From: Antedon mediterranea
Lineage: Eukaryota > Echinodermata > Crinoidea > Comatulida > Antedonidae
Length of the DNA stretch: 64,000 bases
NCBI RefSeq assembly: GCF_964355755.1
Contig: NC_092676.1
Coordinates: forward strand, 25,836,288-25,900,287
Reading direction: 5' to 3'
The notes under the pieces were generated by a model that saw only the letters and a list, made by a program, of their open reading frames with translations, was not told the DNA's origin and searched no databases. Of the stretch, positions 43,401-63,920 are shown piece by piece. Every line of letters begins with the position of its first letter. The first letter of the stretch is position 1. The position numbers and the translations under genes were made by a program.

Positions 43401-46400
43401 TAAAATTACATCAGATAAGTATAATTTTACAAAAGTAATTGATATGGTTTATGATAACGAGTCGTCGGAAGATGGACCATTTCACGAATTTCCTATTTTG
43501 TAACCACAGTGTGATTTTGCCGTAGCTGCACTTGTAATCTGGCCTGATTTCACAGCCTTCGTTCTGCTTCACTGGACGCTTATATAAATTGAAACTTTTA
43601 CCGTTCAAGAGACAAACAAATATATTTTACATTTTTTACTATTCATTTTAAACCCGGAACCCCCCTTTAAGCTCTGTCTACATCAAACTAGTTTGACAAA
43701 AAAAAGTGTGCCCAAATATGGTAGCGATGTGCTTAAATATGGTAGTGATAGGCATAAATGGTAGTGATATGGTATAATCATGTCCATATATGGGCACATC
43801 ACATTTTGTTGTCACATAAAGTTTGTAGACAGAGGATTCCTTTAGTGAAATATTATGATTTAACTAACTTACTGATTTTATGTATTTTAGCTATAAATAG
43901 TATTGATTATAAGCATGTAACAAATCATTATTTTCTTTACTATTATTTTATCTATATTGTTAATGAAGTATAAGAATATAAATAATAGCTTGACCTCACT
44001 ATTTTTTTATATTTTAGCTTTGCCAACTACAACACCAATTCAAACGACAGTATATACCACCACTGGAGCTAAACTAACCACTGGAGCTGAACTAACTACT
44101 GGAGCTGAACTAACTACCGGTGCACAACAAACCACTGGAGCTGTACAAACCACCAATGCACAGCAAACCACTGGAGCTGAACTAACCACTGGAGCTGAAC
44201 TAACTACCGGTGCACAACAAACCACTGGTGCACAGCAAACCACTGGTGCACAGCAAACCACTGGTGCACAGCAAACCACTGGAGCTGAACAAACCACTGG
44301 AGCTGAACTAACTACCGGTGCACAACAAACCACTGGTGCACAGCAAACCACTGGTGCACAGCAAACCACTGGAGCTGAACAAACCACTGGAGCTGAACTA
44401 ACCACTGGAGCTGAACTAACTACTGGTGCACAACAAACCACTGGTGCACAGCAAACCACTGGAGCTGAACAAACCACTGGAGCTGAATTAACCACTGGAG
44501 CTGAACTAACTACTGGTGCACAACAAACCACTGGTGCACAGCAAACCACTGGTGCACAGCAAACCACTGGTGCTGAACAAACAACCGGAGCTCAACTAAC
44601 CACTGAAGCTGAATTAACTATTGGTGCACAGAGAACCACTGGTGCACAGCAAACCACTGGTGCTGAAATAACCACAGGCCCACAGCAAACAACTGGAGCT
44701 GAACAAACCACCGGTGCACAGCAAACCACTGGAGCTGTACAAACCACCAATGCACAGCCAACCACTAGAGCTGAACTAACCACTGGAGCTGAACTAACTA
44801 CCGGTGCACAGCCAACCACCAGTTCACCGCAAACTACTGGAGCTGAACAAACCACTGGTGCTCAGCAAACCACAGGTGCACAGCAAACCACAGGTGCTCA
44901 GCAAACCACAGGTGCACAGCAGACTACCGGAGCTGAACAAACCACCGGAGCTGAACTAACCACCGGAGCTGAACAAACCACCGGAGCTGAACTAACCACC
45001 GGAGCTGAACTAACCACCGGAGCTGAACTAACCACCGGAGCTGCACAAACCACCGGAGCTGCACAAACCACCGGAGCTGAACAAACCACCGGAGCTGAAC
45101 TAACTACCGGAGCTGAACAAACCACCGGAGCTGAACAAACCACCGGAGCTGAACATACCACCGGAGCTGAACAAACCACCAGAGCTGAACAAACCACTGG
45201 AGCTGCACAAACCACCGGAGCTGCACAAACCACCGGAGCTGCACAAACCACCGGAGCTGCACAAACCACCGGAGCTGAACATACCACCGGAGCTGAACAA
45301 ACCACCGGAGCTGAACTAACCACCGGAGCTGAACTAACCACCGGAGCTGCACAAACCACCGGAGCTGAACATACCACCGGAGCTGAACATACCACCGGAG
45401 CTGAACTAACTACCGGAGCTGAACAAACCACTGGAGCTGAACAAACCACTGAATCTTCTAGTACATACCCACCAGGATGCACTGAAGATGAATTTGCTTG
45501 TGACAATGGAGATTGTCTCCCAGGGGGTGTCAATGGAGTGGTTTGCAATAATATTAATGACTGCGGTGATAACTCGGATGAGAAGTATTGTGGTAAATGT
45601 TGAACATAATTGACCATATTTACAGAAGTTTTTCCCACCTATAAATGCAGCAGTTACTTCTTAAATGGTTTTTTGTTATTGGCTATTTAAATTTATATTA
45701 TCTATCTATAGAAGTAAAGCAGAACTTTAATTCCCTAAACTAATGTTTCAATAAAAGTTAATAATACAAATTTAACATAAAACTAATGTCTGTATTTAAT
45801 TAAACATGTTTTTTGTTTACTTGTAGGAACGACACCAACAACAACACAAATAGGTTGTACAGTATATGAATGGAAATGTACAGCATTTGATAAGTGTATC
45901 AATACTACACAGAGATGCAATGGCATTCTGGATTGCCCAGACGCGAGTGATGAAATTGATTGTGTTATTGAAACAACAGAAGCTCCCATGACAACTAGAT
46001 ACTTGACCCCAACTGGAGAGATCAAGACGACCCCTGGTCCATATTTGACAACCACAGGTAAAACATTGATAGCTTACAGACAAAACACTCATATTATGGG
46101 CAGAGTAAATTTTATTATAATACAGTACAGTATAATTTCTTATGTTCTTTTTTTACAGGTCAGACACCAATTTCTACAGCTGTGACTACAGCTCTACCAC
46201 CAATATCAACTACAGGAAAACCATCAGCTGTGACTACAGGACGGTCAACAGCTGTGACTACAGGACGACCATCAGCTGTGACTACAGCTCTACCACCAAC
46301 ATCAACTACAGGAGAGCCATCAGCTGTGACTACAGCTTTACCACCAACATCAACAACAGAAGAGCCATCAGCTGTGACTACAGGACAGCCATCAGCTGTA

Positions 46401-49400
46401 ACAACTGCTCTACCACCAACATCAACTACAGGAGAGCCATCAGATGTGACTACAGGAAAGCCATCAGCTGTGACTACAGCTCTACCACCAACATCAACAA
46501 CAGGAGAGCCATCAGCTGTGACTACAGGACAGCCATCAGCTGTAACAACTGCTCTACCACCAACGTCAACTACAGGAGAGCCATCAGCTATGACTACAGG
46601 AAAGCCATCAGCTGTGAGTACAGCTCTACCACCAACATCAACAACAGGAGAGCCATCAGCTGTGACTACAGAACAGCCATCAGTTGTCACTACAGGACGG
46701 CCATCAGCTTTCACTACAGCTCTACCACCAACATCAACAACAGGAGAGCCATCAGCTGTGACTACAGGACAGCCACCAGCTGTAACAACTGCTCTACCAC
46801 CAACATCAACTACAGGAGAGCCATCAGATGTGACTACAGGACAGCCATCAGCTGTGACTACAGAACAGCCATCAGTTGTCACTACAGGACGGCCATCAGC
46901 TGTCACTACAGCTCTACCACCAACATCAACAACAGGAGAGCCATCAGCTGTGACTACAGGACAGCCACCAGCTGTAACAACTGCTCTACCACCAACATCA
47001 ACTACAGGAGAGCCATCAGATGTGACTACAGGACAGCCATCAACTGTGACTACAGGACAGCCATCAGCTGTGACTACAGCTCTACCACAAACATTAACAA
47101 CAGGAGAGCCATCAGCTTTGACTACAGGACAGCCATCAGTTGTCACTACAGGACGGCCATCAGCTGTCACTACAGCTCTACCACCAACATTAACAACAGA
47201 AGAGCCATCAGCTGTGACTACAGGACAGCCGTCAGCTGTGACTACAGCTTTACCACCAACATCAACTACAGGAGAGACATCAACTTTGACTACAGGTTTG
47301 TAGTTTTTTGTAAAAAAATTTGTTCCTCATTCGTTTACACTTAAAGTGAGTTGTGTTTTCTGATTTCAAATTCAACGTAATACTTTTAAACACGGAAAAG
47401 TTTTCACAATGAGTATAATCAACATCCCCATCTTCTTTCAGAAATAGCTGGTAGTACTGTATTTACCACAACGTTTGGAACCGTTCCATCTACATGTGCT
47501 GTAGGGCAATTTCATTGCTTGAGTGGAGAATGCATTGACGCTTCTAAGCTCTGTGACACAACACCGGATTGCTCAGATTACTCTGATGAAAAAGGATGTG
47601 GTATGTATTAAAACATTTTGCTAATTCATAACTAATAATTGTAAAGTTATTTTATTGTCAAATCCAAATTAAAAAAAAAAATGAATACTCTGTTAATATC
47701 AGTCAGATGTTTTGCGCTACACTGACTTAATTTGTACTTTACACTAAGTACATTGAGAACACTAAGTAGATTCGAGCCCAGTTAAACAGCGGGTACTGCA
47801 CCAACCGGATTGTAATTTTTTTGTGTTGTCAATGTACTTTTAGTATAACGTACAAATTACGTCAGAGTAGGGCAAAACATCTGACCAATTACTTACTGAT
47901 GCAAAGCTACTCCACATTAGTTAAACAATTAAAATCCTGTTATATATCATTATTAACAAATGGCTCGTTACACTATATTTCTTACAAATATTTACTTTGA
48001 ATATTTTTCTTACAGGAACTACTATGCTGCCAACAACATCTTTTCAAACTACTGAATTTTCTGGTAAGTATTCCTTATCGTGTTTGTTTTTATAGAATAT
48101 TTTAATTTGCTGAAATCTCAAGATTTATTTCTGGCTGTTTTACTTTATCGTTTTGATTTAGATTTCAGTTTTTTATATTTGTATCTCCATTGAGATCCAG
48201 CCCACATCATTGCCTTTGGATTAATACATTATATACTATTATTTTACAGATTATTGTAGCACTAAACTTGGATTGGAAGATGGCACCATAGAACCACATC
48301 AGTTATCAGCATCATCCACAGAAGAAGGAAACAGCCTTAGTAACTTAGGACTTAATAGTCCTGTAGATGCAAATGGCAACACTGGTTGGTCACCAGCAGC
48401 TGATGATTCAAACCGCTGGGTTACTATTGATCTTCAAAAACCTACTGTCATAACAGCCATTCTTGTGCAAGGAGGAGGTTTATATTCAGAACTATATGTC
48501 ACAGCAGTGGAAATTGGTTACAGTGATGATGGCACAGAATTCTCATTCATTAATGCGGTTCTGACTGCCAATGAAAACGATTTTGAATCTCAGAAGATCC
48601 AATTAATTCAACCGATAACAACACAGTTTTTAAGAATAAAGATTGTGGATTATAATGGGGAAAAAGCAACGTTAAGAACTGAATTACTTGGATGCGATGT
48701 AGAAGGACCAGCTGTAACAACAGGACAACCATCTATTTTAACAACAGAACAACTCTATACTACCGGACAAATGTCAACAGTAACGGCATGGCAAACATTA
48801 CCATCTACTACATCAGTTCTGGATCTCACACAAATGACGACATTTGTTTCATTCAAGCCTATAACAACTGCACAACCACCAATAACAACCAGCATACCAT
48901 CAGTTCAGACAACAATTTCTACAACAGGACCACCAACACTTGTAACAACAGGACTGCCATCAGTTGTAACAACAGGACTGCCATCAGCTGTAACAACAGG
49001 ACAGCCATCAGCTGTAACAACAGGACAGCCATCAGCTCTAACAACAGGACAGCCATCAGCTATAACTACAGGACAGCCATCAGCTGTAACAACGGGACGG
49101 CCATCAGCTGTAACAACAGCTCTACCGGCAACATCAACCACAGAACAGCCATCAGCTTTTACAACAGGAGAGCCATCAGCTATAACTACAGGACAGTCGT
49201 CAGCTGTAACAACACCTCTACCACCAACATCAACTACAGGACAACCATCAGCTGTTACAACAGGACAACCATCAGCTGTGATTACAGGACAGCCATCAGC
49301 TGTAACAACAGCTCTACCACCAACATCAACTACAGCACAGCCATCAGCTGTTACTACAGGTCAACCATCAGCTGTAACAACTGCTCTACCTCCAACATCA

Positions 49401-52400
49401 ACTACAGGACAGCCATCAGCTGTGACTACAGAACAGCCATCAGCTGTGTCTACAGGACAGCCATCAGCTATAACTACAGGACAGCCATCAGCTGTAACAA
49501 CAGCTCTACCACCAACATCAACTACAGGACAGCCATCAGCTGTAACAACAGGAGAGCCATCAGCTGTTACAACAGGTCAACCATCAGCTGTAACAACTGC
49601 TCTACCACCAACATCAACTACAGGACAGCCATCAGCTGTTACAACAGGTCAACCATCAGCTGGATCAACTGTTCTACCACCAACATCAACTACAGGACAG
49701 CCATCAGCTGTAAAAACAGGAGAGCCATCAGCTGTAACAACAGGTCAACCGTCAGCTGTAACAACTCCTCTACCACCAACATCAACTACAGGACAACCAT
49801 CAGCTGTTACAACAGGAGAGCCATCAGCTATAACTACAGGACAGCCATCAGCTGTAACAACAGCTCTACCACCAACATCAACTACAGGAGAGCCATCAGC
49901 TGTTACAACAGGACAACCATCAGCTGTAACAACAGCTCTACCGCCAGCATTAACTACGGGACAGCCATCAGCTGTCACAACAGGACAACCATCAACTGTT
50001 ACAACAGGACAACCATCAGCTGTAACAACAGGACGGCCATCAGCTGTAACTACAGGACAGCCATCAGCTGTGACTACAGGACAACCATCAGCTGTAACAA
50101 CAGCTCTACCACCAACATCAACTACAGGACAGCCATCAGCTGTGACTACAGGTCAACCATCAGCTGTAACAACTGCTCTACCTCCAACATCAACTACAGG
50201 ACAGCCAACAGCTGTGACTACAGGACAGCCATCAGCTGTGACTACAGGACAGCCATCAGCTGTAACAACAGCTCTACCACCAACATCAACTACAGGACAG
50301 CCATCAGCTGTGACTACAAGAGAACCATCAGCTGCTACAACAGGACAACCATCAGCTGTTACAACAGAACAACCATCAGCTGTAACAACAGGACAACCGT
50401 CAGCTGTTACTACAGGACAGCCATCAGCTGTGACTACAGGACAGCCATCAGCTGTAACAACAGCTCTACCACCAACATCAACTACAGGACAGCCATCAGC
50501 TGTAACAACAGGAGAGCCATCAGCTGTTACAACAGGTCAACCATCAGCTGTAACAACTGCTCTACCACCAACATCAACTACAGGACAGCCATCAGCTGTT
50601 ACAACAGGTCAACCATCAGCTGGATCAACGGTTCTACCACCAACATCAACTACAGGACAGCCATCAGCTGTAACAACAGGAGAGCCATCAGCTGTAACAA
50701 CAGGTCAACCGTCAGCTGTAACAACTCCTCTACCACCAACATCAACTACAGGACAACCATCAGCTGTTACAACAGGAGAGCCATCAGCTATAACTACAGG
50801 ACAGCCATCAGCTGTAACAACAGCTCTACCACCAACATCAACTACAGGAGAGCCATCAGCTGTTACAACAGGACAACCATCAGCTGTAACAACAGCTCTA
50901 CCGCCAGCATTAACTACGGGACAGCCATCAGCTGTTACAACAGGACAACCATCAGCTGTCACAACAGGACAACCATCAGCTGTTACAACAGGACAACCAT
51001 CAGCTGTAACAACAGGACGGCCATCAGCTGTAACTACAGGACAGCCATCAGCTGTGACTACAGGACAACCATCAGCTGTAACAACAGCTCTACCACCAAC
51101 ATCAACTACAGGACAGCCATCAGCTGTGACTACAGGTCAACCATCAGCTGTAACAACTGCTCTACCTCCAACATCAACTACAGGACAGCCAACAGCTGTG
51201 ACTACAGGACAGCCATCAGCTGTGACTACAGGACAGCCATCAGCTGTAACAACAGCTCTACCACCAACATCAACTACAGGACAGCCATCAGCTGTGACTA
51301 CAAGAGAACCATCAGCTGCTACAACAGGACAACCATCAGCTGTTACAACAGAACAACCATCAGCTGTAACAACAGGACAACCGTCAGCTGTTACTACAGG
51401 ACAGCCATCAGCTGTGACTACAGGACAGCCATCAGCTGTGACAACGGCTCTACCACGAACATCCACCACAGGACAGCCATCAGCTATTACAACAGGACAA
51501 CCATCAGCTGTTACAACAGGTCAACCATCAGCTGTTACAACAGGAGAGCCATCAGCTATAACTACAGGACAGCCATCAGCTGTAACAACAGCTCTACCAC
51601 CAACATCAACTACAGGACAGCCATCAGCTCTAACAACAGGACGGCCATCAGCTGTTACAACAGGACAACCATCAGCTGTAACAACAGGACAACCGTCAGC
51701 TGTTACTACAGGACAGCCATCAGCTGTGACTACAGGACAACCATCAGCTGTAACAACAGCTCTACCACCAACATCAACTACAGAACAGCCATCAGCTGTG
51801 ACTACAGGTCAACCATCAGCTGTAACAACTGCTCTACCTCCAACATCAACTACAGGACAGCCATCAGCTGTTACAACAGGACAACCATCAGCTGTGACTA
51901 CAGGACAGCCATCAGCTGTAACAACAGCTCTACCACCAACATCAACTACAGGACAGCCATCAGCTGTGACTACAAGAGAACCATCATCAGCTGCTACAAC
52001 AGGACAACCGTCAACTGTAACAACAGCTCTACCACGAAAATCAACTACAGGACAGCCATCAGCTGTTACAACAGGACAACCATCAGCTGTTACAACAGGA
52101 CAACCATCAGCTGTAACAACATTACAACCGTCAGCTGTGACTACAGGACAGCCATCAGCTATAACTACAGGACAGCCATCAGCTGTTACAACAGGACAGC
52201 CATCAGCTGTGACTACAGGACAGCCATCAGCTGTGACAACGGCTCTACCACCAACATCCACTACAGGACAGCCATCAGCTGTTACAACAGGACAACCATC
52301 AGCTGTAACAACAGGAGAGCCATCAGCTGTAACTACAGGACAGCCATCAGCTGTAACAACAGCTCTACCACCAACATCAACTACAGGACAGTCATCAGCT

Positions 52401-55400
52401 GTGACTACAGGTCAACCATCAGCTGTGACTACAGGTCAACCATCAGCTGTAACAACTGCTCTACCTCCAACATCAACTACAGGACAGCCAACAGCTGTGA
52501 CTACAGGACAGCCATCAGCTGTGACTACAGGACAGCCATCAGCTGTAACAACAGCTCTACCACCAACATCAACTACAGGACAGCCATCAGCTGTGACTAC
52601 AAGAGAACCATCAGCTGCTACAACAGGACAACCATCAGCTGTTACAACAGAACAACCATCAGCTGTAACAACAGGACAACCGTCAGCTGTGACTACAGGA
52701 CAGCCATCAGCTGTGACAACGCCTCTATCACCAACATCCACTACAGGACAGCCATCAGCTGTTACAACAGGACAACCATCAGCTGTAACAACAGGAGAGC
52801 CATCAGCTGTTACAACAGGTCAACCATCAGCTGTTACAACAGGTCAACCATCAGCTGTAACAACTGCTCTACCACCAACATCAACTACAGGACAGCCATC
52901 AGCTGTCACAACAGGAGAGCCATCAGCTGTTACAACAGGAGAGCCATCAGCTGTTACAACAGGTAAACCATCAGCTGTAACAACTGCTCTACCACCAACA
53001 TCAACTACAGGACAGCCATCAGCTGTTACAACAGCACAACCATCAGCTGTGACTACAAGACAGCAATCAACTGTAACAACAGCTCTACCACCAACATCAA
53101 CTACAGGACAACCATCAGCTGTTACAACAGGAGAGCCATCAGCTATAACTACAGGACAGCCATCAGCTGTAACAACAGCTCTACCACCAACATCAACTAC
53201 AGGACAGCCATCAGCTGTAACAACGGGACTGCCATCTGCTGTGACTACAGGACAGCCATCAGCTGTTACAACAGGAGAGCCATCAGCTGTTACAACAGGA
53301 GAGCCATCAGCTGTTACAACAGGACAGCCATCAGCTGTTACAACAGGACAACCATCAGCTGTAACAACAGGACAACCGTCAGCTGTGACTACAGGACAGC
53401 CACCAGCTATAACTACAGGAGAGCCATCAGCTGTAACAACAGCTCTACCGCCAACATCAGCTACAGGACAGCCATCAGCTGTAACAACAGGACGGCCATT
53501 AGCTGTCACAACAGGACAACCATCAGCTGTTACAACAGGACAACCATCAGCTGTAACAGGACGGCCATCAGCTGTGACTACAGGACGGCCATCAGCTGTG
53601 ACTACAGGACAGCCATCAGCTGTGACTACAGGACAACCATCAGCTGTAACAACGGCTCTACCACCAACATCCACTACAGGACAGCCATCAGCTGTTACAA
53701 CAGGACAACCATCAGCTGTAACAACAGGAGAGCCATCAGCTGTTACAACAGGTCAACCATCAGCTGTAACAACTGCTCTACCACCAACATCAACTACAGG
53801 ACAGCCATCAGCTGTCACAACAGGAGAGCCATCAGCTGTTACAACAGGAGAGCCATCAGCTGTTACAACAGGTAAACCATCAGCTGTAACAACTGCTCTA
53901 CCACCAACATCAACTACAGGACAGCCATCAGCTGTTACAACAGCACAACCATCAGCTGTGACTACAAGACAGCAATCAACTGTAACAACAGCTCTACCAC
54001 CAACATCAACTACAGGACAACCATCAGCTGTTACAACAGGAGAGCCATCAGCTATAACTACAGGACAGCCATCAGCTGTAACAACAGCTCTACCACCAAC
54101 ATCAACTACAGGACAGCCATCAGCTGTAACAACGGGACTGCCATCTGCTGTGACTACAGGACAGCCATCAGCTGTTACAACAGGAGAGCCATCAGCTGTT
54201 ACAACAGGAGAGCCATCAGCTGTTACAACAGGACAGCCATCAGCTGTTACAACAGGACAACCATCAGCTGTAACAACAGGACAACCGTCAGCTGTGACTA
54301 CAGGACAGCCACCAGCTATAACTACAGGAGAGCCATCAGCTGTAACAACAGCTCTACTGCCAACATCAGCTACAGGACAGCCATCAGCTGTAACAACAGG
54401 ACGGCCATCAGCTGTCACAACAGGACAACCATCAGCTGTTACAACAGGACAACCATCAGCTGTAACAACAGGACGGCCATCAGCTGTGACTACAGGACGG
54501 CCATCAGCTGTGACTACAGGACAGCCATCAGCTGTGACTACAGGACAACCATCAGCTGTAACAACAGCTCTACCACCAACATCAACTACAGGACAGCCAT
54601 CAGCTGTGACTACAGGTCAACCATCAGCTGTAACAACTGCTCTACCTCCAACATCAACTACAGGACAGCCATCAGCTGTTACAACAGGACAACCATCAGC
54701 TGTAACAACATTACAACCGTCAACTGTGACTACAGGAAAGCCATCAGCTATAACTACAGGACAGCCATCAGCTATTACAACAGGACAGCCATCAGCTGTG
54801 ACAACGGCTCTACCACCAACATCCACTACAGGACAGCCATCAGCTGTTACAACAGGACAACCACCAGCTGTTACAACAGGACAGCCATCAGGTATAACTA
54901 CAGGACAGCCATCAGCTGTAACAACAGCTCTACCACCAACATCAACTACAGGACAACCATCAGCTGTTACAACAGGAGAGCCATCAGCTATAACTACAGG
55001 ACAGCCATCAGCTGTAACAACAGCTCTACCACCAACATCAACTACAGGACAGCCATCAGCTATAACAACAGGAGAGCCATCAGCTGTTACAACTGGTCAA
55101 CCATCAGCTGTAACAACTGCTCTACCACCAACATCAACTACAGGACAGCCATCAGCTGTCACAACAGGAGAGCCATCAGCTGTTACAACAGGTCAACCAT
55201 CAGCTGTGACAACTACTCTACCACCAACATCAACTACAGGACAACCATCAGCTGTTACAACAGCACAACCATCAGCTGTGACTACAGGACAGCCATCAGC
55301 TGTAACAACAGCTCTACCACCAACATCAACTACAGGACAACCATCAGCTGTTACAACACGAGAGCCATCAGCTATAACTACAGGACAGCCATCAGCTGTA

Positions 55401-58400
55401 ACAACAGCTCTACCACCAACATCAACTACAGGACACCCATCAGCTGTCACAACAGGAGAGCCATCAGCTGTTACAACAGGACAACCATCAGCTGTAACAA
55501 CAGGACAACCGTCAGCTGTGACTACAGGACAGCCATCAGCTATAACTACGGGAGAGCCATCAGCTGTAACAACAGCTCTACCGCCAACCTCAACTACAGG
55601 ACAGCCATCAGCTGTTACTACAGGTCAACCATCAGCTGTAACAACAGGACGGCCATCAGCTGTGACTACAGGACGGCCATCAGCTGTCACTACAGGACAG
55701 CCATCAGCTGTGACTACAGGACAACCATCAGCTGTAACAACAGCTCTACCACCAACATCAACTACAGGACAGCCATCAGCTGTGACTACAGGTCAACCAT
55801 CAGCTGTAACAACTGCTCTAACTCCAACATCAACTACAGGACAGCCATCAGCTGTTACAACAGGACAACCATCAGCTGTGACTACAAGACAGTCATCAGC
55901 TGTAACAACAGCTCTACCACCAACATCAACTACAGGACAGCTATCAGCTGTGACTACAAGAGAACCATCAGCTGCTACAACAGGACAACCGTCAGCTGTA
56001 ACAACAGCTCTACCACCAAAATCAACTACAGGACACCCATTAGCTGTTACAACAGGACAACCATCAGCTGTTACAACAGGACAACCATCAGCTGTAACAA
56101 CATTACAACCGTCAGCTGTGACTACAGGAAAGCCATCAGCTATAACTACAGGACAGCCATCGGCTATTACAACAGGACAGCCATCAGCTGTGACAACGGC
56201 TCTACCACCAACATCCACTACAGGACAGCCATCAGCTGTTACAACTGGACAACCATCAGCTGTTACAACAGGACAGCCATCAGGTATAACTACAGGACAG
56301 CCATCAGCTGTAACAACAGCTCTACCACCAACATCAACTACAGGACAACCATCAGCTGTTACAACAGGAGAGCCATCAGCTATAACTACAGGACAGCCAT
56401 CAGCTGTAACAACAGCTCTACCACCAACATCAACTACAGGACAGCCATCAGCTATAACAACAGGAGAGCCATCAGCTGTTACAACTGGTCAACCATCAGC
56501 TGTAACAACTGCTCTACCACCAACATCAACTACAGGACAGCCATCAGCTGTCACAACAGGAGAGCCATCAGCTGTTACAACAGGTCAACCATCAGCTGTT
56601 ACAACAGGTCAACCATCAGCTGTGACAACTGCTCTACCACCAACATCAACTACAGGACAACCATCAGCTGTTACAACAGCACAACCATCAGCTGTGACTA
56701 CAGGACAGCCATCAGCTGTAACAACAGCTCTACCACCAACATCAACTACAGGACAACCATCAGCTGTTACAACACGAGAGCCATCAGCTATAACTACAGG
56801 ACATCCATCAGCTGTAACAACAGCTCTACCACCAACATCAACTACAGGACAGCCATCAGCTGTCACAACAGGAGAGCCATCAGCTGTTACAACAGGACAA
56901 CCATCAGCTGTAACAACAGGACAACCGTCAGCTGTGACTACAGGACAGCCATCAGCTATAACTACGGGAGAGCCATCAGCTGTAACAACAGCTCTACCGC
57001 CAACATCAACTACAGGACAGCCATCAGCTGTTACTACAGGTCAACCATCAGCTGTTACAACAGGAAGGCCATCAGCTGTAACTACAGGGCAGCCATCAGT
57101 TGTAACAACGAGACGGCCATCAGCTGTGACTACAGGACAGCCCTCAGCTGTGACTACAGGACAGCCATCAGCTGTAACAACAGGACGGCCATTAGCTGTG
57201 ACTACAGAACAGCCATCAACTATAACTACAGGACAGCCATCAGCTATAACTACAGGACAGCCATCAGCTGTAACAACAGCTCTACCACCAACATCAACTA
57301 CAGGACAGCCATCAGCTGTGACTACAGGGCAGCCATCAGCTGTGACTACCGGACAGCCATCAGCTGTAACGACAGCTCTACCACCAACATCAACTACAGG
57401 ACAGCCATCAGCTGTGACTACAGGAGAACCATCAGCTGTTACAACAGGACAGCCATCAGCTGTGACTACAGCTCTACCACCAATATCAACTACCGGACAG
57501 CCATCAGCTGTGACTACAGGAGAGCCATCCGCTGTTACAACAGAACAACCATCAGCTGCTACAACAGGACGGCCATCAGCTATAACTACAGGGCAGCCGT
57601 CAGTTGTAACAACAGGACGGCCATCAGCTGTGACTACAGGACAGCCATCAGCTATAACTACAGGACAGCCATCAGCTGTAACAACAGCTCTACCACCAAC
57701 ATCTACTACAGGACAGCCTACTGCTGTTACCACAGGACAGCCATCAGCTATAACTACTGCTCTACCATCAACATCAACTACAGGACAGCCATCAGTTGTG
57801 ACTACAGGACGGCCATCAGCCGTGACTACAGCTCTACCACCAACATCAACAACAGGAGAGCCATCAGTTGTGACTACAGGACAGCCATCAGCTGTAACAA
57901 CAGGAGAGCCATCAGTTGTTACAACAGGACAACCGTCATCTGTTACTACAGGACGGCCATCAGCTATAACTACTGCTCTACCACCAACATCAACTACAGG
58001 ACAGCCATCAGTTGTGACTACAGGACGGCCATCAGCCGTGACTACAGCTCTACCACCAACATCAACAACAGGAGAGCCATCAGCTGTGACTACAGGACAG
58101 CCATCAACTGTAACAACAGGAGAGCCATCAGTTGTTACAACAGGACAACCATCAGCTGTGACTACAGGAACAACAGCTCTACCACCAACATCAACTACAT
58201 TACAGCCATCAGCTGTAACAACTGCTCTACCACCGACATCAACTACAGGACAGCCCTCAGCTGTAACAACAGGAGAGCCATCAGTTGTTACAACAGGACA
58301 ACCATCAGCTGTTACTACAGGACAGCCATCAGCTGTAACAACAGGACGGCCATCAGCTGTGACTACAGAACAGCCATCAACTATAACTACAGGACAGCCA

Positions 58401-61400
58401 TCAGCTGTAACAACAGCTCTACCACCAACATCAACTACAGGACAGCCATCAGCTGTGACTACAGGACAGCCATCAGCTGTGACAACAGGACAGCCATCAG
58501 CTGTGACTACAGGACAGCCATCAGCTGTAACTACAGGACAGCCATCAGCTGTAACAACAGCTCTACCACCAACATCAACTACAGGACAGCCATCAGCTGT
58601 GACTACAGGACAGCCATCAGCTGTGACTACAGGACAGCCATCAGCTGTAACGACAGCTCTACCACCAACATCAACTACAGGACAGCCATCAGTTGTGACT
58701 ACAGGACGGCCATCAGCCGTGACTACAGCTCTACCACCAACATCAACAACAGGAGAGCCATCAGTTGTGACTACAGGACAGCCATCTGCTGTAACAACAG
58801 GAGAGCCATCAGTTGTTACAACAGGACAACCGTCATCTGTAACTACAGGACGGCCATCAGCTATAACTACTGCTCTACCACCAACATCAACTACAGGACA
58901 GCCATCAGTTGTGACTACAGGACGGCCATCAGCCGTGACTACAGCTCTACCACCAACATCAACAACAGGAGAGCCATCAGCTGTGACTACAGGACAGCCA
59001 TCAACTGTAACAACAGGAGAGCCATCAGTTGTTACAACAGGACAACCATCAGCTGTGACTACAGGAACAACAGCTCTACCACCAACATCAACTACATTAC
59101 AGCCATCAGCTGTAACAACTGCTCTACCACCGACATCAACTACTGGACAGCCCTCAACTACAGGACAGCCCTCAACTGTAACAACAGGAGAGCCATCAGT
59201 TGTTACAACAGGACAACCATCAGCTGTTACTACAGGACAGCCATCAGCTGTAACAACAGGACGGCCATCAGCTGTGACTACAGAACAGCCATCAACTATA
59301 ACTACAGGACAGCCATCAGCTGTAACAACAGCTCTACCACCAACATCAACTACAGGACAGCCATCAGCTGTGACTACAGGACAGCCATCAACTGTGACAA
59401 CAGGACAGCCATCAGCTGTGACTACAGGACAGCCATTAGCTGTAACGACAGCTCTACCACCAACATCAACAACTACAGGACAGCCATCAGTTGTGACTAC
59501 AGGACAGCCATCAGCCGTGACTACAGCTCTACCACCCACATCAACAACAGGAGAGCCATCAGTTGTGACTACAGGACAGCCATCAGTTGTGACTACAGGA
59601 CAGCCATCAGCTGTAACAACAGGAGAGCCATCAGTTGTTACAACAGGACAACCGTCAGCTGTTACTACAGGACAGCCATCAACTGTAACAACAGGACGGC
59701 CAACAGCTGTGACTACAGGACGGCCATCAGCTGTAACTACAGGACAGCCATCAGCTGTAACAACAGCTCTACCACCAACATCAAGTACAGGACAGCCATC
59801 AGCTGTGACTACAGGACAGCCATCAGCTGTGACTACAGGAAAGCCATCAGCTGTAACGACAGCTCTACCACCAACATCAACTACAGGACAGCCATCAGCT
59901 GTGACTACAGGCCAGCCATCAGCTGTGACTACAGGACAGCCATCAGCTGTGACTACAGCTCTACCACCAATATCGACTACCGTACAGCCATCAGTTGTAA
60001 CAACAGGAGAGCCATCAGCTGTTACAACAGATGAACCATCAGCTGTAACAACTGCTCTACCACCAACATCAACTACAGGGCAGCCATCAGCTATAACTAC
60101 AGGGCAACCATCAGCTGTCACAACAGGAGAGCCATCCGCTGTTACAACAGAACAACCATCAGCTACTACAACAGGACGGCCATCAGCTATAACTACAGGG
60201 CAGCCATCAGTTGTAACAACAGGACGGCCATCAGCTTTGACTACAGGACGGCCATCAGCTGTGACTACAGGACAGCCATCAGCTATAACTACAGGACAGC
60301 CATCAGCTGTAACAACCGCTCTACCACCAACATCTACTACAGGACAGCCTACAGCTGTTACTACAGGACAGCCATCAGCTATAACTACTGCTCTACCACC
60401 AACATCAACTACAGGACAGCCATCAGTTGTGACTACAGCTCTACCACCAACATCAACAACAGGAGAGCCATCAGTTGTGACTACAGGACAGCCCTCAGCT
60501 GTAACAACAGGAGAGCCATCAGCTGTAACAACAGGACGGCCATCAGCTGTGACTACAGAACAGCCATCAACTATAACTACAGGACAGCCATCAGCTGTAA
60601 CAACAGCTCTACCACCAACATCTACTACAGGACAGCCATCAGCTGTTACAACAGGACAACCATCAGCTATAACTACAGGACAGCCATCAGCTGTAACGAC
60701 AGCTCTACCACCAACATCAACTACAGGACAGCCATCAGCTGTAACAACAGAACCATCAGCTGTTACAACAGGACAGCCATCAGCTATAACTACAGGACAG
60801 CCATCAGCTGTTACAACAGGACAACCATCAGCTGTGACTACTGGACAGCCATCAGCTGTAACAACATTACGGCCATCAGCTGTGACTACAGGACAGCCAT
60901 CAGCTATAACTACAGGACAGCCATCAGCTGTAACAACAGCGCTACCACCAACATCTACTACAGGACAGCCATCAGCTGTTACAACAGGAAAGCCATCAGC
61001 TATAACTACAGGACAGCCATCAGCTGTAACGACAGCTCTACCACCAACATCAACTACAGGACAGCCATCAGCTGTGACTACAGGACAGCCATCAGCTGTA
61101 ACAACAGGAGAACCATCAGCTGTTACAACAGGACAGCCATCAGCTGTAACTACAGGACAGCCATCAGCTGTTACAACAAGACAACCATCAGCTGTTACAA
61201 CAGGACAACCATCAGCTGTTACAACAGGACAACCATCAGCTGTGACTACAGGACAGCCATCAGTTGTTACAACAGGACAACCATCAGCTGTGACTACAGG
61301 ACAGCCATCAGCTGTAACAACAGGACGGCCATCAGCTTTGACTACAGGACAGTCATCAGTTGTGACTACAGGACAACCATCAGCTATAACTACAGGACAG

Positions 61401-63920
61401 CCATCAGTTATAACAACTGCTCTACCACCAACATCAACTACAGGACAGCCATCAGCCGTGACTACAGGACGGCCATCAGCCTTGACTACAGCTCTACCAC
61501 CAACATCAACAACAGGAGAGTCAACAGCTGTGACTACTGGACAGCCATCAGCTGTAACAACAGGAGAGCCATCAGTTGTTACTACAGGAGAGCCATTAGT
61601 TGTTACTACAGGACAACCATCAGCTGTAACAACAGGACGGCCATCAGCTGTGACTACAGGACAATCTACTACAGGACAGCCATCAGCTGTTACAACAGGA
61701 CAGACATCGGCTACAACTACAGGACAGTCATCAGCTGTAACAACAGCTCTACCACCAACATCTACTACAGGAGAACCATCAATTGTTACAACAGGACAGT
61801 CATCAGCTATAACTACAGGACAGCCATCAGCTGTAACAACAGCTCTACCATCAACGTCAACTACTGGACAACCATCAGCTGTGACTACAAGACAACCATC
61901 AGCTGTTACAACAGCTCTACCACCAACATCAACTACAGGACAGCCATCAGCTAATACAACAGGGCCACCATTAACACGAGGCACTACAACCTTTACTCCA
62001 GCAGTTACTACAGGTTAATTTTAAATTAAATAACAACAAATCATAATCTCCAATTATTGTACATTAAAGTGATATTTTGCTATTATGTATGTTATTACAG
62101 CTGAAGTAAAGAAATAACTCACTAGCAGTAATAATTTTATTTTTTAACAGAACGAGTTACTACTTGCTACAGTGGTGAATTCATATGTAAAAGTAATGGT
62201 GAATGCATTCCTGGAGATTCTGTGTGTGATCGTGATTGTGATTGCAGAGATTGTTCTGATGAAGAAGTCTGTGGTAAGTTAAATCAATTTCATAAGCTCA
62301 TTTGCGGATTGGTTGTAAATTTATCTTAGTTTTATTTATTTTTTTTTTATATATTGAGGTATAAGTTGAAAAACACATAAAGCATAAAAAACAAAATGCA
62401 GCTAAAGCCTAAAAAAATATGATTACAAATACCATAACATTTAAATTCTAAAATGACTTTTGTTTTTAAAAAGTTTTTATATTATACATCAATATTGAAA
62501 AATAAATGCTATTAGGAGACAATAGTGCAAGCTGCCTTTACATTTGTTTGATTCTGACTTAAAGGTTTTACAACTACTACAAGAAAACCCAATGCGGAAG
62601 CAACAACTATGGAATCTACTACTGCGCCGGAAAGTACAACTGTTAGAAATAGATACAGTACTACAGTAACTACAACGGTTTATATTAGGCCAAATGCAAC
62701 TACTCTACCTTACACAACAAGAGAGCATGAAACATCTGCTTTTGTGCCAAGTACTATTGTAACAACCAGTAATGGTGTTGAAACCACTCTGGTACACACT
62801 ACTGGTGTGGTCACTTCAGGCTTGCCAACCACTAATGCTGTATATACAACTGGACAACAAAAAACAACTGCCGGTTTTGAAACAACTACTGGTCAACAGA
62901 TAACCACAGGTGAACATATCACAACCGGTGGACAGATGACCACAGGGCCACAAAATTTGAACCCAACCACATTTAGAGAAGTGACTGTTGAAGAAGCAAC
63001 TACAGGTAGCCCAGTAACAACTGAACACAAGACAACCGTCAATGTTCAGACAACTGGTCAACCTATGACCACAGGTCAATCTATGACCACTGGTCGTGAA
63101 ATGACCACTGGTGCACAACAAACTACTGGTATGGAACCAACAACCAGTTTGCTAACGACTGGTAATCAACCGACAACTGGTGAACAAGCAACAACTGGCG
63201 TACCAATGACAACGGGTATACAAACAACTACCGGATTTATACCAACTACGACTGGTCTTCCAGTTACCAGTGGTGTACCAACTACCACTGGAATACCACT
63301 TACAACCGGAATCGAGAAAACTACCGCAGTGGAATCTACCACTGGTTTTCTTACTACTACCGTTATCACCACCTCTGAAACAACAACTACTATTGCTGTA
63401 ACTACACAAAAGCCAACAGGTTAGTTTTTTATCATAGTTATATAATTTTGCCAAGTAAAGTATTTGCTTTGTGTGTTTGTTAGCACAATAGCATATCCAC
63501 AATTTTTAAGTTATCGTCCTTAATTTTTTAGTGTTAATATGTATATACTTACAGAACATACCTATATATTTTCAGGAAAGTGTATATGTTGGTCACGGCA
63601 CAAAACCTTATTATATTAATATCTTTCATACAAGATATTAAACATCAGTTGTGAGCCGTTTCTCTCCTAATAATGTTTTCCCTGATATATTTTACTTCAC
63701 TCAGTTTCTGAGTGCTTTTCTTATTCTTTGTTGTATTCTATTCTAGTTACTGAACTGACAACACCTTGTCAGTACGCTGAGTGGGGACTGTGGAGTGAAT
63801 GTAGTGTGTCGTGTGGCACTGGAAACAAGACTAGATCTCGAAGTTTCACCAATGAAGCCGACTGCCAGATAACGGAGAACAATTACGATACTGAATACTG
63901 CAATGAAATGGCTTGTCCAA
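22496..63920 (+). CDS. SSPO: SCO-spondin-like giant secreted glycoprotein with mucin domains (3' end outside window)
   Basis: SCO-spondin is a large secreted matrix protein. In vertebrates it polymerises into Reissner's fibre in brain fluid. About 41 exons in one frame give about 7,600 residues before the window ends. The start [20 protein letters not shown] followed by AQ is a signal peptide. The order is EMI-like (22496-24103), EGF (24224-24325), VWD-C8-TIL three times (24832-38549), LDLrA 1-6 (39288-42063), mucin 1 plus LDLrA 7, LDLrA 8, mucin 2, LDLrA 9, F5/8C plus mucin 3, LDLrA 10, mucin 4 and the first thrombospondin repeat. The set EMI-VWD-LDLrA-F5/8C-TSR in this order is known to me only from SCO-spondin. 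The mucin segments are not in the vertebrate protein. Module introns are phase 1. A mucin or otogelin relative is the alternative, but LDLrA, F5/8C and TSR modules argue against it. The exon chain is by eye and needs a transcript. Confidence 0.87.
22728..22930. mobile_element. TTAA-ended MITE family C, copy 3 (truncated)
   Basis: The left TIR TTAAAGATGTATTCTCCTAC and an interior matching the 9210 copy (GACTTTGAATATGCCATTTT, CACTTATAAAAAGTTCAAC, CCTTAAATTACAATTTT) are present. The right end is missing. It is in SSPO intron 1. Confidence 0.7.
23225..23530. repeat. AGGCCT/CTAGG palindrome cluster 3
   Basis: The largest of the three clusters, in SSPO intron 1, with many overlapping GGCCTAG and CTAGGCC words and no fixed period. 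Confidence 0.65.
25130..25375 (-). repeat. Dispersed repeat D, copy 2
   Basis: Reverse-complement match to 12260-12440 (ACCTTTCATCATTCACCTCA, TGTGCAATAGTATGTACTAT), with a poly-T-rich insertion in the middle. It is in a VWD1 intron. Confidence 0.6.
25526..25687 (-). mobile_element. MITE family A, copy 11
   Basis: Left CTCTGTCTACACTATCAAAT, right TTGATAGTGTAGACAGAGCC. Two-block core in the minus orientation. VWD1 intron. Confidence 0.82.
26191..28530 (-). CDS. NRF-6-like membrane acyltransferase, one exon, nested in an SSPO intron
   Basis: A 779-residue intronless reading frame on the minus strand, complete from ATG 28530 to TAG 26191. Residues 1-17 are a signal peptide ([15 protein letters not shown]). 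A Thr/Ser-rich stretch with N-glycosylation sites follows to about residue 130. Then comes the NRF domain ([55 protein letters not shown]), a membrane segment near 260 and an acyltransferase-3 domain with the usual blocks ([20 protein letters not shown] with the likely active-site His, [24 protein letters not shown]) and about ten membrane spans. NRF-6 of C. elegans acts in lipid and drug transport; the substrates of most relatives are unknown. The lack of introns and the antisense position suggest a retroposed or long-intronless copy. TTTTATA at 28575-28581 and TTTATT at 26058-26063 could be its TATA box and poly(A) signal. Confidence 0.93.
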   Translation of the reverse strand: MTGMLLLVMILAVSCQAQPQVVNNEVEAMKLIAKQRYVNSYQAKAEELQAAVDELIMKPLLSPSADLVSVQPTTASPSESTTSDMDTATSKWNQTDVPTTADGNVTNHSSFVTIVTNYTTINVTELPINTMTTKPSLSQCQIDLKTFQSDLLLGENYALMMVDSYGKLPPGILQGNIQYWLGLYDECLNQTREIGDGRINYRGKYCVAGLNARKTKLPSIGICVPDSCSDSDLMEILGPKTPDSLLSVSYVLCNEVPEYSAAAIICLIFLSFFGLLIVIGTVYDIWMRHKVSRQDGFEKLTEDDANVNSINNTPTTEGIALHTGASHTRRADRQTGRSIFGKVLLCFSLLINGDKILKTKQGEQSLGALNGIRVISLWWVMLGHTYAFAMTLFSNPTVTLDIISRFTFQAVGNATFSVDSFFFLSGLLVTYLTLKYLQKHDGKLNWVMFYVHRYLRLTPVYMMVIFIFTTLTIHFANGPLYQAFFSPNPVFGIASAVTPCQKYWWTNLLYINNLYPSGINEECIGWSWYLANDMQFYIISPFVIYLLYHYFFVGVAFWSGLLITCFGSLIGISMKYSIYAGLLPQTPDQRTLGADVIYIRPYTRISTYLVGMALGYILYKYKDRVRMPRFVAIMGWLAATGIALAVVYGLYGTYHGNPINKAGSVVYITLCRFSWSVALGWVAFACVTGYGGPVNTLLSWSFWIPLSRINYCAYLLHPIIMFVFYYSLPNLIYFTDLLLVYFFLGNIVLSYSAAFLLSVSIEAPFMALEKLLLNREKSV
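28575..28581 (-). promoter_or_regulatory. Candidate TATA box of the nested NRF-6-like gene
   Basis: TATAAAA on the minus strand about 45 bp before the ATG at 28530. If real, the nested gene has its own promoter and a 5' UTR of only about 20 nt. Other TATA-like words nearby keep this tentative. Confidence 0.35.
30292..30438 (+). mobile_element. MITE family A, copy 12
   Basis: SSPO C8-1 intron. Left TAAAGCTTTGTCTACACGAT, right TTGATAGTGTAGACAGGCGTA. Single-block core. Confidence 0.78.
30755..31180 (-). mobile_element. tRNA-derived SINE family E, full copy
   Basis: On the minus strand it starts GAGCGAGTGAGTGGTCTAGC (A box) and has AAAGGTTTGAGGCTCACTTG (B box), followed by a body with CGAATAAGAACTATAAACCA, GTACACATCTAGCTCATGTG and, at the end, GACCAGTCCTTGACTGAAGA. 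The body recurs at 38185-38400 and 40985-41175, showing a dispersed SINE family. It is in an SSPO intron. Confidence 0.75.
31833..31999 (+). mobile_element. MITE family A, copy 13
   Basis: Left TTAAAGCTCTGTCTACACTA, right decayed (TTGTTAGTGGAAAACAGGCTTGA). Two-block core. It starts 19 bp after the first VWD2 exon. Confidence 0.8.
34490..34835 (+). mobile_element. Non-LTR retrotransposon (LINE) 3' fragment
   Basis: Translates to [20 protein letters not shown] followed by [16 protein letters not shown]. This is the CxxC...H...C zinc-knuckle-like end that follows the reverse transcriptase domain in many invertebrate LINEs. It is followed by a GGGCCAATGGCCCATATACT tail and AATAATAAA. Only the 3' end is present. 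SSPO intron. Confidence 0.65.
37716..37880 (-). mobile_element. MITE family A, copy 14
   Basis: Left TAAAGCTCTATCTACACTTT, right TTGATAGTGTTGACAGAGCTTTA. Two-block core. SSPO TIL-4 intron. Confidence 0.8.
38185..38400 (+). mobile_element. SINE family E, body fragment
   Basis: Shares GTGTACACATCTAGCTCATG, TAAGAACCTAGTACATC and CAGTGTTTGACTGAAGAGGT with the copy at 30755-31180, in the opposite orientation. The tRNA head is missing. Confidence 0.6.
38963..39256 (+). mobile_element. tRNA-derived SINE family F, complete, (ATT)n tail
   Basis: Starts GGGCGTGAGGCGCAGTGTGT with A-box-like text. The B box is in GACCTAGGTTTGAACTCTCG. The body ends GCGCTATATAAATGTGGTAT followed by (ATT)n. This head-body-tail layout is that of a SINE. 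It is in the SSPO intron before LDLrA 1. Confidence 0.8.
39483..39648 (-). mobile_element. MITE family A, copy 15
   Basis: Left CTTGTCTACACTATCAAACT, right GTTTGATAGTGTCAGAGTGA then CGGAGCTTTA, with a small insertion. Two-block core. Between LDLrA 1 and 2. Confidence 0.78.
40985..41175 (-). mobile_element. SINE family E, fragment
   Basis: Contains CAGTCTAAGACTGGTCTCCG, GATGTACTAGGTTCTTTAAA and GAGCTAGATGTGTACACTAA, matching the 30755-31180 copy. The tRNA head is missing. Between LDLrA 4 and 5. Confidence 0.6.
42088..43669. mobile_element. 1.6-kb non-autonomous transposon with TTAA ends, family G
   Basis: TIRs are TTAAAGGGGGATTCTGGGTT at the left and AACCCGGAACCCCCCTTTAA at the right, filling most of the 2-kb intron between LDLrA 6 and mucin 1. 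The TTAA at both ends fits a piggyBac-type target site, although the TIR is not a textbook one. The interior is less AT-rich than its surroundings and includes CGCGACGTCATGTACG and CACGTGACGATGCC. No reading frame of useful length is found. Confidence 0.65.
43669..43836 (+). mobile_element. MITE family A, copy 16
   Basis: Abuts the right end of the family G element and shares its final TTTAA. Left TTTAAGCTCTGTCTAC, right partly lost (TTTGTAGACAGAGGATT). It has three ATGGTAGTGAT blocks, the most in the window. Confidence 0.78.
44018..45592 (+). repeat. SSPO exon: mucin domain 1 (TTGAEQ hexapeptide repeats) plus LDLrA 7
   Basis: A single exon of 525 codons. About 75 tandem 18-bp units encode TTGA followed by EQ, EL, QQ, AQ or EH, rich in Thr and suited to mucin-type O-glycosylation. 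Units up to about 44930 mostly use ACT GG(A/T), while later units use ACC GGA, so two separate amplifications are joined. The exon ends with an LDLrA module ([17 protein letters not shown] to [10 protein letters not shown]). All three frames of the minus strand stay largely open over the array only because the unit length is a multiple of 3. Confidence 0.92.
45827..46057 (+). other. SSPO exon: LDLrA 8 with Thr-rich flanks
   Basis: A six-cysteine module, [20 protein letters not shown] to [10 protein letters not shown], followed by a short Thr/Pro linker ([20 protein letters not shown]). Confidence 0.9.
46159..47295 (+). repeat. SSPO exon: mucin domain 2 (octapeptide repeats)
   Basis: A single exon of 379 codons with about 45 tandem 24-bp units, alternating TTG(E/Q)PSAV and TTALPPTS. 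It uses the same octapeptide as mucin 3, but with GEPSAV and GKPSAV more frequent, so the array has spread between exons of the same gene. Confidence 0.92.
47442..47600 (+). other. SSPO exon: LDLrA 9
   Basis: [20 protein letters not shown] to [10 protein letters not shown], preceded by a Thr-rich stub ([10 protein letters not shown]). Followed by a 15-residue linker exon at 48017-48061 ([15 protein letters not shown]). Confidence 0.9.
47601..48016. other. Intron after LDLrA 9 with a short palindrome
   Basis: Contains TCAGATGTTTTGCGCTACAC and, about 140 bp later, an inverted match (GTAGGGCAAAACATCTGACC), with TTTGTACTTTACACTAAG / AGTATAACGTACAAATTACG between. This is a probable small foldback element of about 180 bp (47699-47887), family unknown. 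Confidence 0.5.
48250..48699 (+). other. SSPO: discoidin (F5/8 type C) domain
   Basis: The first 150 codons of the giant exon. [54 protein letters not shown] and ELLGC follow the F5/8C pattern. There is a paired first and last Cys and the typical LG(M/L)E(D/S)G.I entry. F5/8C domains bind membranes, glycans or collagen. In SCO-spondin this domain sits within or after the LDLrA array, as here. Confidence 0.92.
48700..62013 (+). repeat. SSPO: giant mucin domain 3, about 4,440 codons in one exon
   Basis: The exon that starts with the F5/8C domain continues without an intron or stop to 62013. From about 48930 it consists of some 540 tandem 24-bp units, mostly TTGQPSAV with [24 protein letters not shown] and TTGQPSAI variants. 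Higher-order copies are visible: 49621 onward repeats at 50581 onward (offset 960, later 984), 52861 onward at about 53770 (offset 909), 54890 onward at 56283 (1392), and 57795 onward at 58692 (897). Irregular units all differ by whole codons: an extra Ser near 51985, a lost Thr near 53556 and shortened units near 58166 and 59061. Almost no Cys or aromatic residues occur, as expected for an extended O-glycosylated brush. Confidence 0.93.
62151..62273 (+). other. SSPO exon: LDLrA 10 with two extra cysteines
   Basis: [20 protein letters not shown] then [16 protein letters not shown]. It has eight Cys instead of six, the extra pair lying in the calcium-binding half. The final SDEEVC is intact. 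Confidence 0.85.
62565..63419 (+). repeat. SSPO exon: mucin domain 4 (irregular TTG repeats)
   Basis: A single exon of 285 codons, Thr-rich with loose units such as [20 protein letters not shown] and [15 protein letters not shown]. The units are much less homogenised than in mucins 1-3, so this may be the oldest array. The acceptor is the unusual but valid TGACTTAAAG. Confidence 0.85.
63747..63920 (+). other. SSPO exon: thrombospondin type 1 repeat
   Basis: [20 protein letters not shown] then KTRSRSF to YCNEMAC. It has the WxxW C-mannosylation motif (WGLW) and the CSVSCGTG O-fucosylation motif (CxxS/TCxxG). It ends at a GTAAGT donor, so the gene continues past 64000, where more such repeats are expected. 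Confidence 0.92.

Follow-up and report, generated by a model that had tools for sequence, protein, structure and literature searches.

A SCO-spondin-type gene with mucin arrays in the crinoid Antedon mediterranea, predicted to encode a polymer-forming mucus or cuticle protein

SCO-spondin (SSPO), the main component of Reissner's fibre, is a giant secreted protein that comprises three D assemblies (VWD-C8-TIL), an array of LDLa modules, an F5/8C (discoidin) domain, a mixture of TSR and TIL modules and a C-terminal cystine knot. Mammalian SCO-spondin has more than 20 TSRs, and in the vertebrate protein some of the TSRs precede the F5/8C domain. VWF and the gel-forming mucins form polymers through disulphide bonds, by means of their VWD-C8-TIL assemblies and a cystine knot. 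The gel-forming mucins MUC2, MUC5AC, MUC5B and MUC6 combine D assemblies and a cystine knot with a PTS repeat encoded by a giant central exon; the mammalian members are not known to carry LDLa, F5/8C or TSR modules. D assemblies are also found in VWF, in hemocytin/hemolectin and in the sea-star footprint protein Sfp1. Hemocytin and Sfp1 have discoidin domains as well, and none of the three is known to have a TSR or LDLa array; of these proteins, VWF was compared here by sequence. SCO-spondin is thought to polymerise as VWF and the gel-forming mucins do (PMC8487547), and orthologues are known in echinoderms and other invertebrates (PMC8261243, PMC5543218). Giant single mucin exons are documented as well: exon 30 of MUC2 measures 8,793 bp (PMC6269512), and a figure of 10.7 kb for the mucin exon of MUC5B is cited in the same paper. 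Finally, limpet pedal mucus contains a SCO-spondin-like protein, P-vulgata_3, a chain of 1,604 residues whose listed domains include VWD, C8, TIL and five LDLa modules but not F5/8C, TSR or a mucin array (PMC7333891).

The locus described here lies on contig NC_092676.1 of the Antedon mediterranea assembly (GCF_964355755.1), in a stretch of 64,000 nucleotides hereafter called the window (positions 25,836,288 to 25,900,287; coordinates below are those of the window unless a contig is named). A gene model was built by reading exons and Pfam matches on genomic DNA over the window plus 11 kb beyond it. The gene occupies approximately 22.5-74.9 kb of the plus strand, its final 11 kb lying outside the window. 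It shares VWD, C8, TIL and LDLa with the limpet protein and, on its domain order, it is assigned the architecture of SCO-spondin plus mucin domains.

The centre of the gene is a single exon of 13,764 bp (48250-62013, plus strand), a multiple of three with phase 1 at both ends. An AG at 48248-48249 and a GT at 62014 flank it, and its translation yields 4,587 full codons and no stop, so that the single open frame that had been read between these two splice sites is borne out. The same reading had this exon join a discoidin domain to about 540 octapeptides, and this also proved accurate. Codons between 48252 and about 48700, at the start of the exon, encode a complete F5/8C domain (positions 1-127 of Pfam PF00754, E 4.8e-21); its closest solved structures are C domains, namely those of coagulation factor V and neuropilin. 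This domain is undivided within one exon, whereas most F5/8C matches in the genome are interrupted around profile position 82-85, as an intron at that point would do. The repeat follows from 48714 to 62013 and comprises 4,433 residues in 547 units, 519 of which are exactly eight residues long; the commonest are TTGQPSAV (223 units) and TTALPPTS (82), and the pattern loosens over about 80 residues at its start and about 20 at its end. Threonine makes up 27.9%, serine 12.4% and proline 14.5% of the repeat, cysteine is lacking, and the 1,785 Ser/Thr residues are accompanied by one N-glycosylation sequon. Near 52.8 kb the array contains a 909-bp tandem duplication whose copies agree perfectly over 480 bp or more; the exact length of the array may therefore depend on the assembly or the allele.

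A tandem array with such a duplication could be a non-coding satellite, or an assembly artefact, within an intron. That reading is very improbable, since 13.3 kb run without stops or frame shifts, the array is in frame with the F5/8C domain and the stretch contains no N. The coding frame has no stop in the repeat, whereas the five other frames have 4 to 643, each of the reverse frames having at least 27. Units differ from one another at third positions of the coding frame: there pN/pS is 0.29 among units of the TTGQPSAV type (n=419) and 0.15 among those of the TTALPPTS type (n=98), while the two remaining forward frames give 0.74-3.6. Since array units evolve in concert and copies are not independent, these ratios mark the frame and not the strength of selection. 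One reverse frame has identical wobble columns and cannot be separated from the coding frame by pN/pS, so the strand is assigned from the union with the F5/8C domain and from the splice sites. The repeat frame is under coding constraint, and a satellite array is rejected on the open frame and the pN/pS values.

Around the giant exon, the exons form an orderly series. The probable first coding exon (22496-22573, 3' end not fixed), which was located by scanning for a start followed by a hydrophobic stretch, would supply the ATG and a signal peptide. It is followed by an EGF-like exon of phase 1-1 (24224-24325), recognised by eye from its cysteine pattern and without a Pfam match. The first VWD-C8-TIL assembly is spread over several exons (24832-31548; Pfam VWD partial, C8 at 30569-30718, TIL); the second (31676-33739) and the third (35411-38144, with a splice from 36810 to 37159) each match Pfam VWD, C8 and TIL. 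Six LDLa exons of phase 1-1, all with Pfam Ldl_recept_a matches, come next (39288-39401, 39737-39850, 40094-40213, 40833-40946, 41415-41528 and 41947-42063). One exon (44018-45592) then encodes about 480 residues of TTGAEQ-type hexapeptides and the seventh LDLa, as read from its repeats, Pfam match and splicing. The eighth LDLa has a Thr-rich tail (45827-46057; Pfam, splicing) and precedes a mucin exon of 378 residues with the octapeptides of the giant exon (46159-47295; repeat reading, splicing), the ninth LDLa (47442-47600, E 2e-13) and a mini-exon for a Thr-rich linker (48016-48063, GT-AG, phase 1-1). Downstream of the giant exon lie the tenth LDLa (62151-62273, E 4.6e-8), a fourth mucin stretch placed by splicing (62565-63419; 284 residues, Thr 35%) and the first TSR (63705-63920, Pfam TSP_1), all on the plus strand. 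Beyond it come ten further TSRs, TILs and a putative cystine knot, up to a stop near 74,900, past the end of the window; in the last exon a knot-like pattern of cysteines stands just before the stop, and AATAAA signals are present. The four mucin stretches jointly contain 2,221 Ser/Thr. The model is less certain than at its centre in the 5' third (N-terminus and first two D assemblies) and at the 5' border of the TSR1 exon.

Two other features of this stretch may be mentioned. An intronless minus-strand frame of 788 residues (26191-28557), with NRF N-terminal and Acyl_transf_3 domains of the nose-resistant-to-fluoxetine type, lies nested within the region that the first VWD assembly occupies. 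A 21-bp tandem unit, GTGATATGCCCAAATATGGTA or its complement, occurs at 5176, 14798, 18252, 31876 and 43707 of the window and probably belongs to a dispersed repeat.

A gene boundary between the F5/8C domain and the TSRs would have undone the initial reading of the locus. No such boundary was found: the giant exon is followed by an intron of 137 bp before the tenth LDLa, too short to accommodate one, and the 16 consecutive exons that begin with LDLa1 and end with TSR2 all have phase 1-1 and, once spliced, give 6,322 codons free of stops. The idea that a second gene begins downstream of the array is accordingly rejected, as phase and domain order continue across the intron. The uniform phase means, however, that any of these 16 exons could be skipped in frame, and the donor at 62014 scores weakly. 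The repeat exon might thus be retained in some transcripts only, giving a long mucin isoform in mucus cells and, by skipping, a classic SCO-spondin elsewhere. I regard this as rather unlikely, since skipping of the giant exon would take out the F5/8C domain too and donors elsewhere in the gene are just as weak. Read-through of the same donor might alternatively create an early 3' end, with a short product that ends after the array and lacks TSRs and cystine knot. Read-through would meet GGT-TAA at once (in-frame TAA at 62016-62018), and two ATTAAA hexamers (62025 and 62063) lie within the 137-bp intron. Yet such hexamers are frequent in AT-rich DNA, and the LDLa, mucin and TSR exons downstream keep the phase and match the family, which makes such an alternative end distinctly unlikely.

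The proposal that the gene is SCO-spondin-like is well supported and extends to the whole gene, in the order D assemblies, LDLa, F5/8C, TSRs and knot pattern. Pfam matches and exon reading give the three N-terminal VWD-C8-TIL assemblies that membership of the SCO-spondin family requires. Nine of the ten LDLa exons precede, and one follows, the single F5/8C domain, which therefore stands among LDLa modules; the eleven TSRs are mixed with several TILs. The C-terminal Cys_knot match (E 4e-4) reaches 20.9 bits against a curated Pfam cut-off of 24, and in a phmmer search of the PDB the best match of this region was the VWF knot, at a marginal E of 0.07. Three D assemblies, an LDLa array, F5/8C, a TSR/TIL mix and a giant, here predicted, secreted product are common to SCO-spondin and the crinoid gene, and a C-terminal cystine knot may be as well. 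The crinoid gene differs from SCO-spondin in its four mucin stretches, in having eleven TSRs, all of them after the F5/8C domain, and in lacking a recognisable EMI domain. No EMI was found in 14-29 kb at E values up to 0.01-0.1, thresholds at which a divergent or intron-split EMI could escape, and the gene is for this reason filed as SCO-spondin-like rather than as proven SSPO.

The gene also has the combination of VWD-C8-TIL assemblies and a PTS domain by which gel-forming mucins are recognised, and it shares D assemblies, a PTS repeat in a giant central exon and probably a cystine knot with MUC2, MUC5AC, MUC5B and MUC6. Here the PTS exon carries an F5/8C domain too, which is not known from mammalian gel-forming mucins. 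Over its full length the third D assembly can be aligned with D assemblies of VWF and MUC2, its best single-domain matches being VWF D2 (218 bits) and VWF D3 (161 bits). It retains the GDCxCxC cysteines of VWF positions 1097/1099/1101, which D2 partly lacks, while the insert that bears Cys1142 of VWF is missing from the alignment; in VWF, these are interchain cysteines. None of the three assemblies has the CGLC motif that is present in D assemblies of VWF and mucins; all read xGLC, and the gene is thus not filed as a gel-forming mucin and would at best work like one. Multimerisation via the D assemblies is plausible from these residues, but the xGLC motifs and the absent Cys1142 insert suggest that it may use fewer bonds.

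The sequence-only reading had taken the union of F5/8C and mucin repeat to be a novelty. When the genome assembly (18 contigs, 354 Mb) was searched by domain, this part of the claim did not hold, as two further loci carry such neighbours. At the first of them (C1:30907877-30981927), the genome domain searches placed C8, F5/8C and spondin-type TSRs together. In the 40 kb of this locus that were read (30921500-30961499), F5/8C domains alternate with mucin stretches, one of them an open frame of 1,441 residues, and in one exon within C1:30942486-30944495 an F5/8C domain is followed directly by a mucin repeat of about 450 residues. The F5/8C domain of this exon and that of the giant exon are 27% identical over 114 residues, a level at which descent from one ancestral F5/8C-plus-mucin exon is not claimed. 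The second locus (C1:15095000-15176254, minus strand) is a giant gene that encodes C8, LDLa, many F5/8C domains alternating with several mucin stretches whose units are TTGEPSGS octapeptides, and kringles; a TSR motif was looked for there and none was seen. Both genes have C8, F5/8C and mucin stretches in common with the gene of the window, and the 30.9-Mb locus resembles it further in its TSRs and in the exon joining F5/8C to mucin; both differ from it in their several F5/8C domains and other repeat units. A literature search of partial coverage returned no report of mucin arrays in a SCO-spondin-type protein, so that, while SCO-spondin orthologues and giant mucin exons were already known, a protein of this type with mucin arrays seems new.

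The genome searches yielded a few observations of separate interest. About 30 C8 domains with nearly identical scores recur with a period near 1.7 kb at C3:38097596-38153103; this is a tandem array homogenised recently, perhaps in the style of IgGFc-binding protein. C8, dense tandem F5/8C exons and one TSR lie within 200 kb at C2:23843576-24041506, where there are possibly further VWD/F5/8C genes. Contig C2 also carries a Hox cluster of twelve genes, which from their homeodomain signatures I take to be Hox1 to Hox8, Hox9/10 and three Hox11/13, an ambulacrarian set. Contig C4 encodes crinotocin, a peptide known from Antedon mediterranea (PMC9793003): its nonapeptide reads CFWRTCPVG and has a signal peptide ahead of it and GKR after it. 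Both findings agree with a crinoid as the source of the DNA. The crinoid peptide PCNP15 was searched for and not found, and searches for mitochondrial COX1 and for GFP gave no match either.

What might such a protein do? The reading favoured here, to which I give a probability of about two in three, is that this is a complete SCO-spondin-type gene of a crinoid which has acquired PTS domains at four places among its LDLa and F5/8C modules, and that its product is a disulphide-polymerising, O-glycosylated mucin, that is, a polymer of mucus, cuticle or glycocalyx. The product would be secreted, and its three VWD-C8-TIL assemblies and putative C-terminal cystine knot would link it into disulphide-bonded chains in the manner of VWF and the gel-forming mucins. 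Its Thr/Ser/Pro composition predicts heavy O-glycosylation, which would turn the repeat into a stiff, hydrated bottle-brush about 1 micrometre long. The F5/8C, LDLa and TSR modules may recognise partners among lipids, glycans or proteins and keep the polymer on the surface of an epithelium. Mucus gland cells of the tube feet and epidermis, or radial glia, are candidate sources, in keeping with the limpet protein in pedal mucus (PMC7333891) and with the reactivity of echinoderm nervous tissue and epidermis to antisera against bovine Reissner's substance (PMC2705372).

Alternatively, the gene may encode the crinoid Reissner-substance protein, a fibre or neural cuticle made by radial glia in which the arrays only lengthen and hydrate the chain, with no general role in mucus. 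The architecture is the same as that of SCO-spondin, antisera to bovine Reissner's substance stain radial glia, nervous tissue and epidermis of echinoderms (PMC2705372), and such staining of glia is also described in PMC10570448. Reissner's fibre has, however, been reported in chordates only (PMC5543218), and the presence of two or more further F5/8C-mucin genes in the genome suggests an epithelial mucus family, which leaves a purely neural function the less likely alternative, well short of even odds. A SCO-spondin-type gene with about 4,400 mucin residues probably makes a polymer-forming mucus or cuticle protein, and a role in mucus or cuticle is more economical than a Reissner-fibre-like one.

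The gene unites two families that are usually kept separate, SCO-spondin, which is neural and fibre-forming, and the gel-forming mucins. It also points to a suspension feeder as the source of a very large natural polymer, predicted to be O-glycosylated. A broader and more tentative hypothesis is that crinoids possess a family of SCO-spondin-like mucins, in which the chordate Reissner's-fibre protein is represented by a true gel-forming mucin in several copies. If true, this would support the descent of Reissner's fibre from the mucus of a ciliated epithelium.
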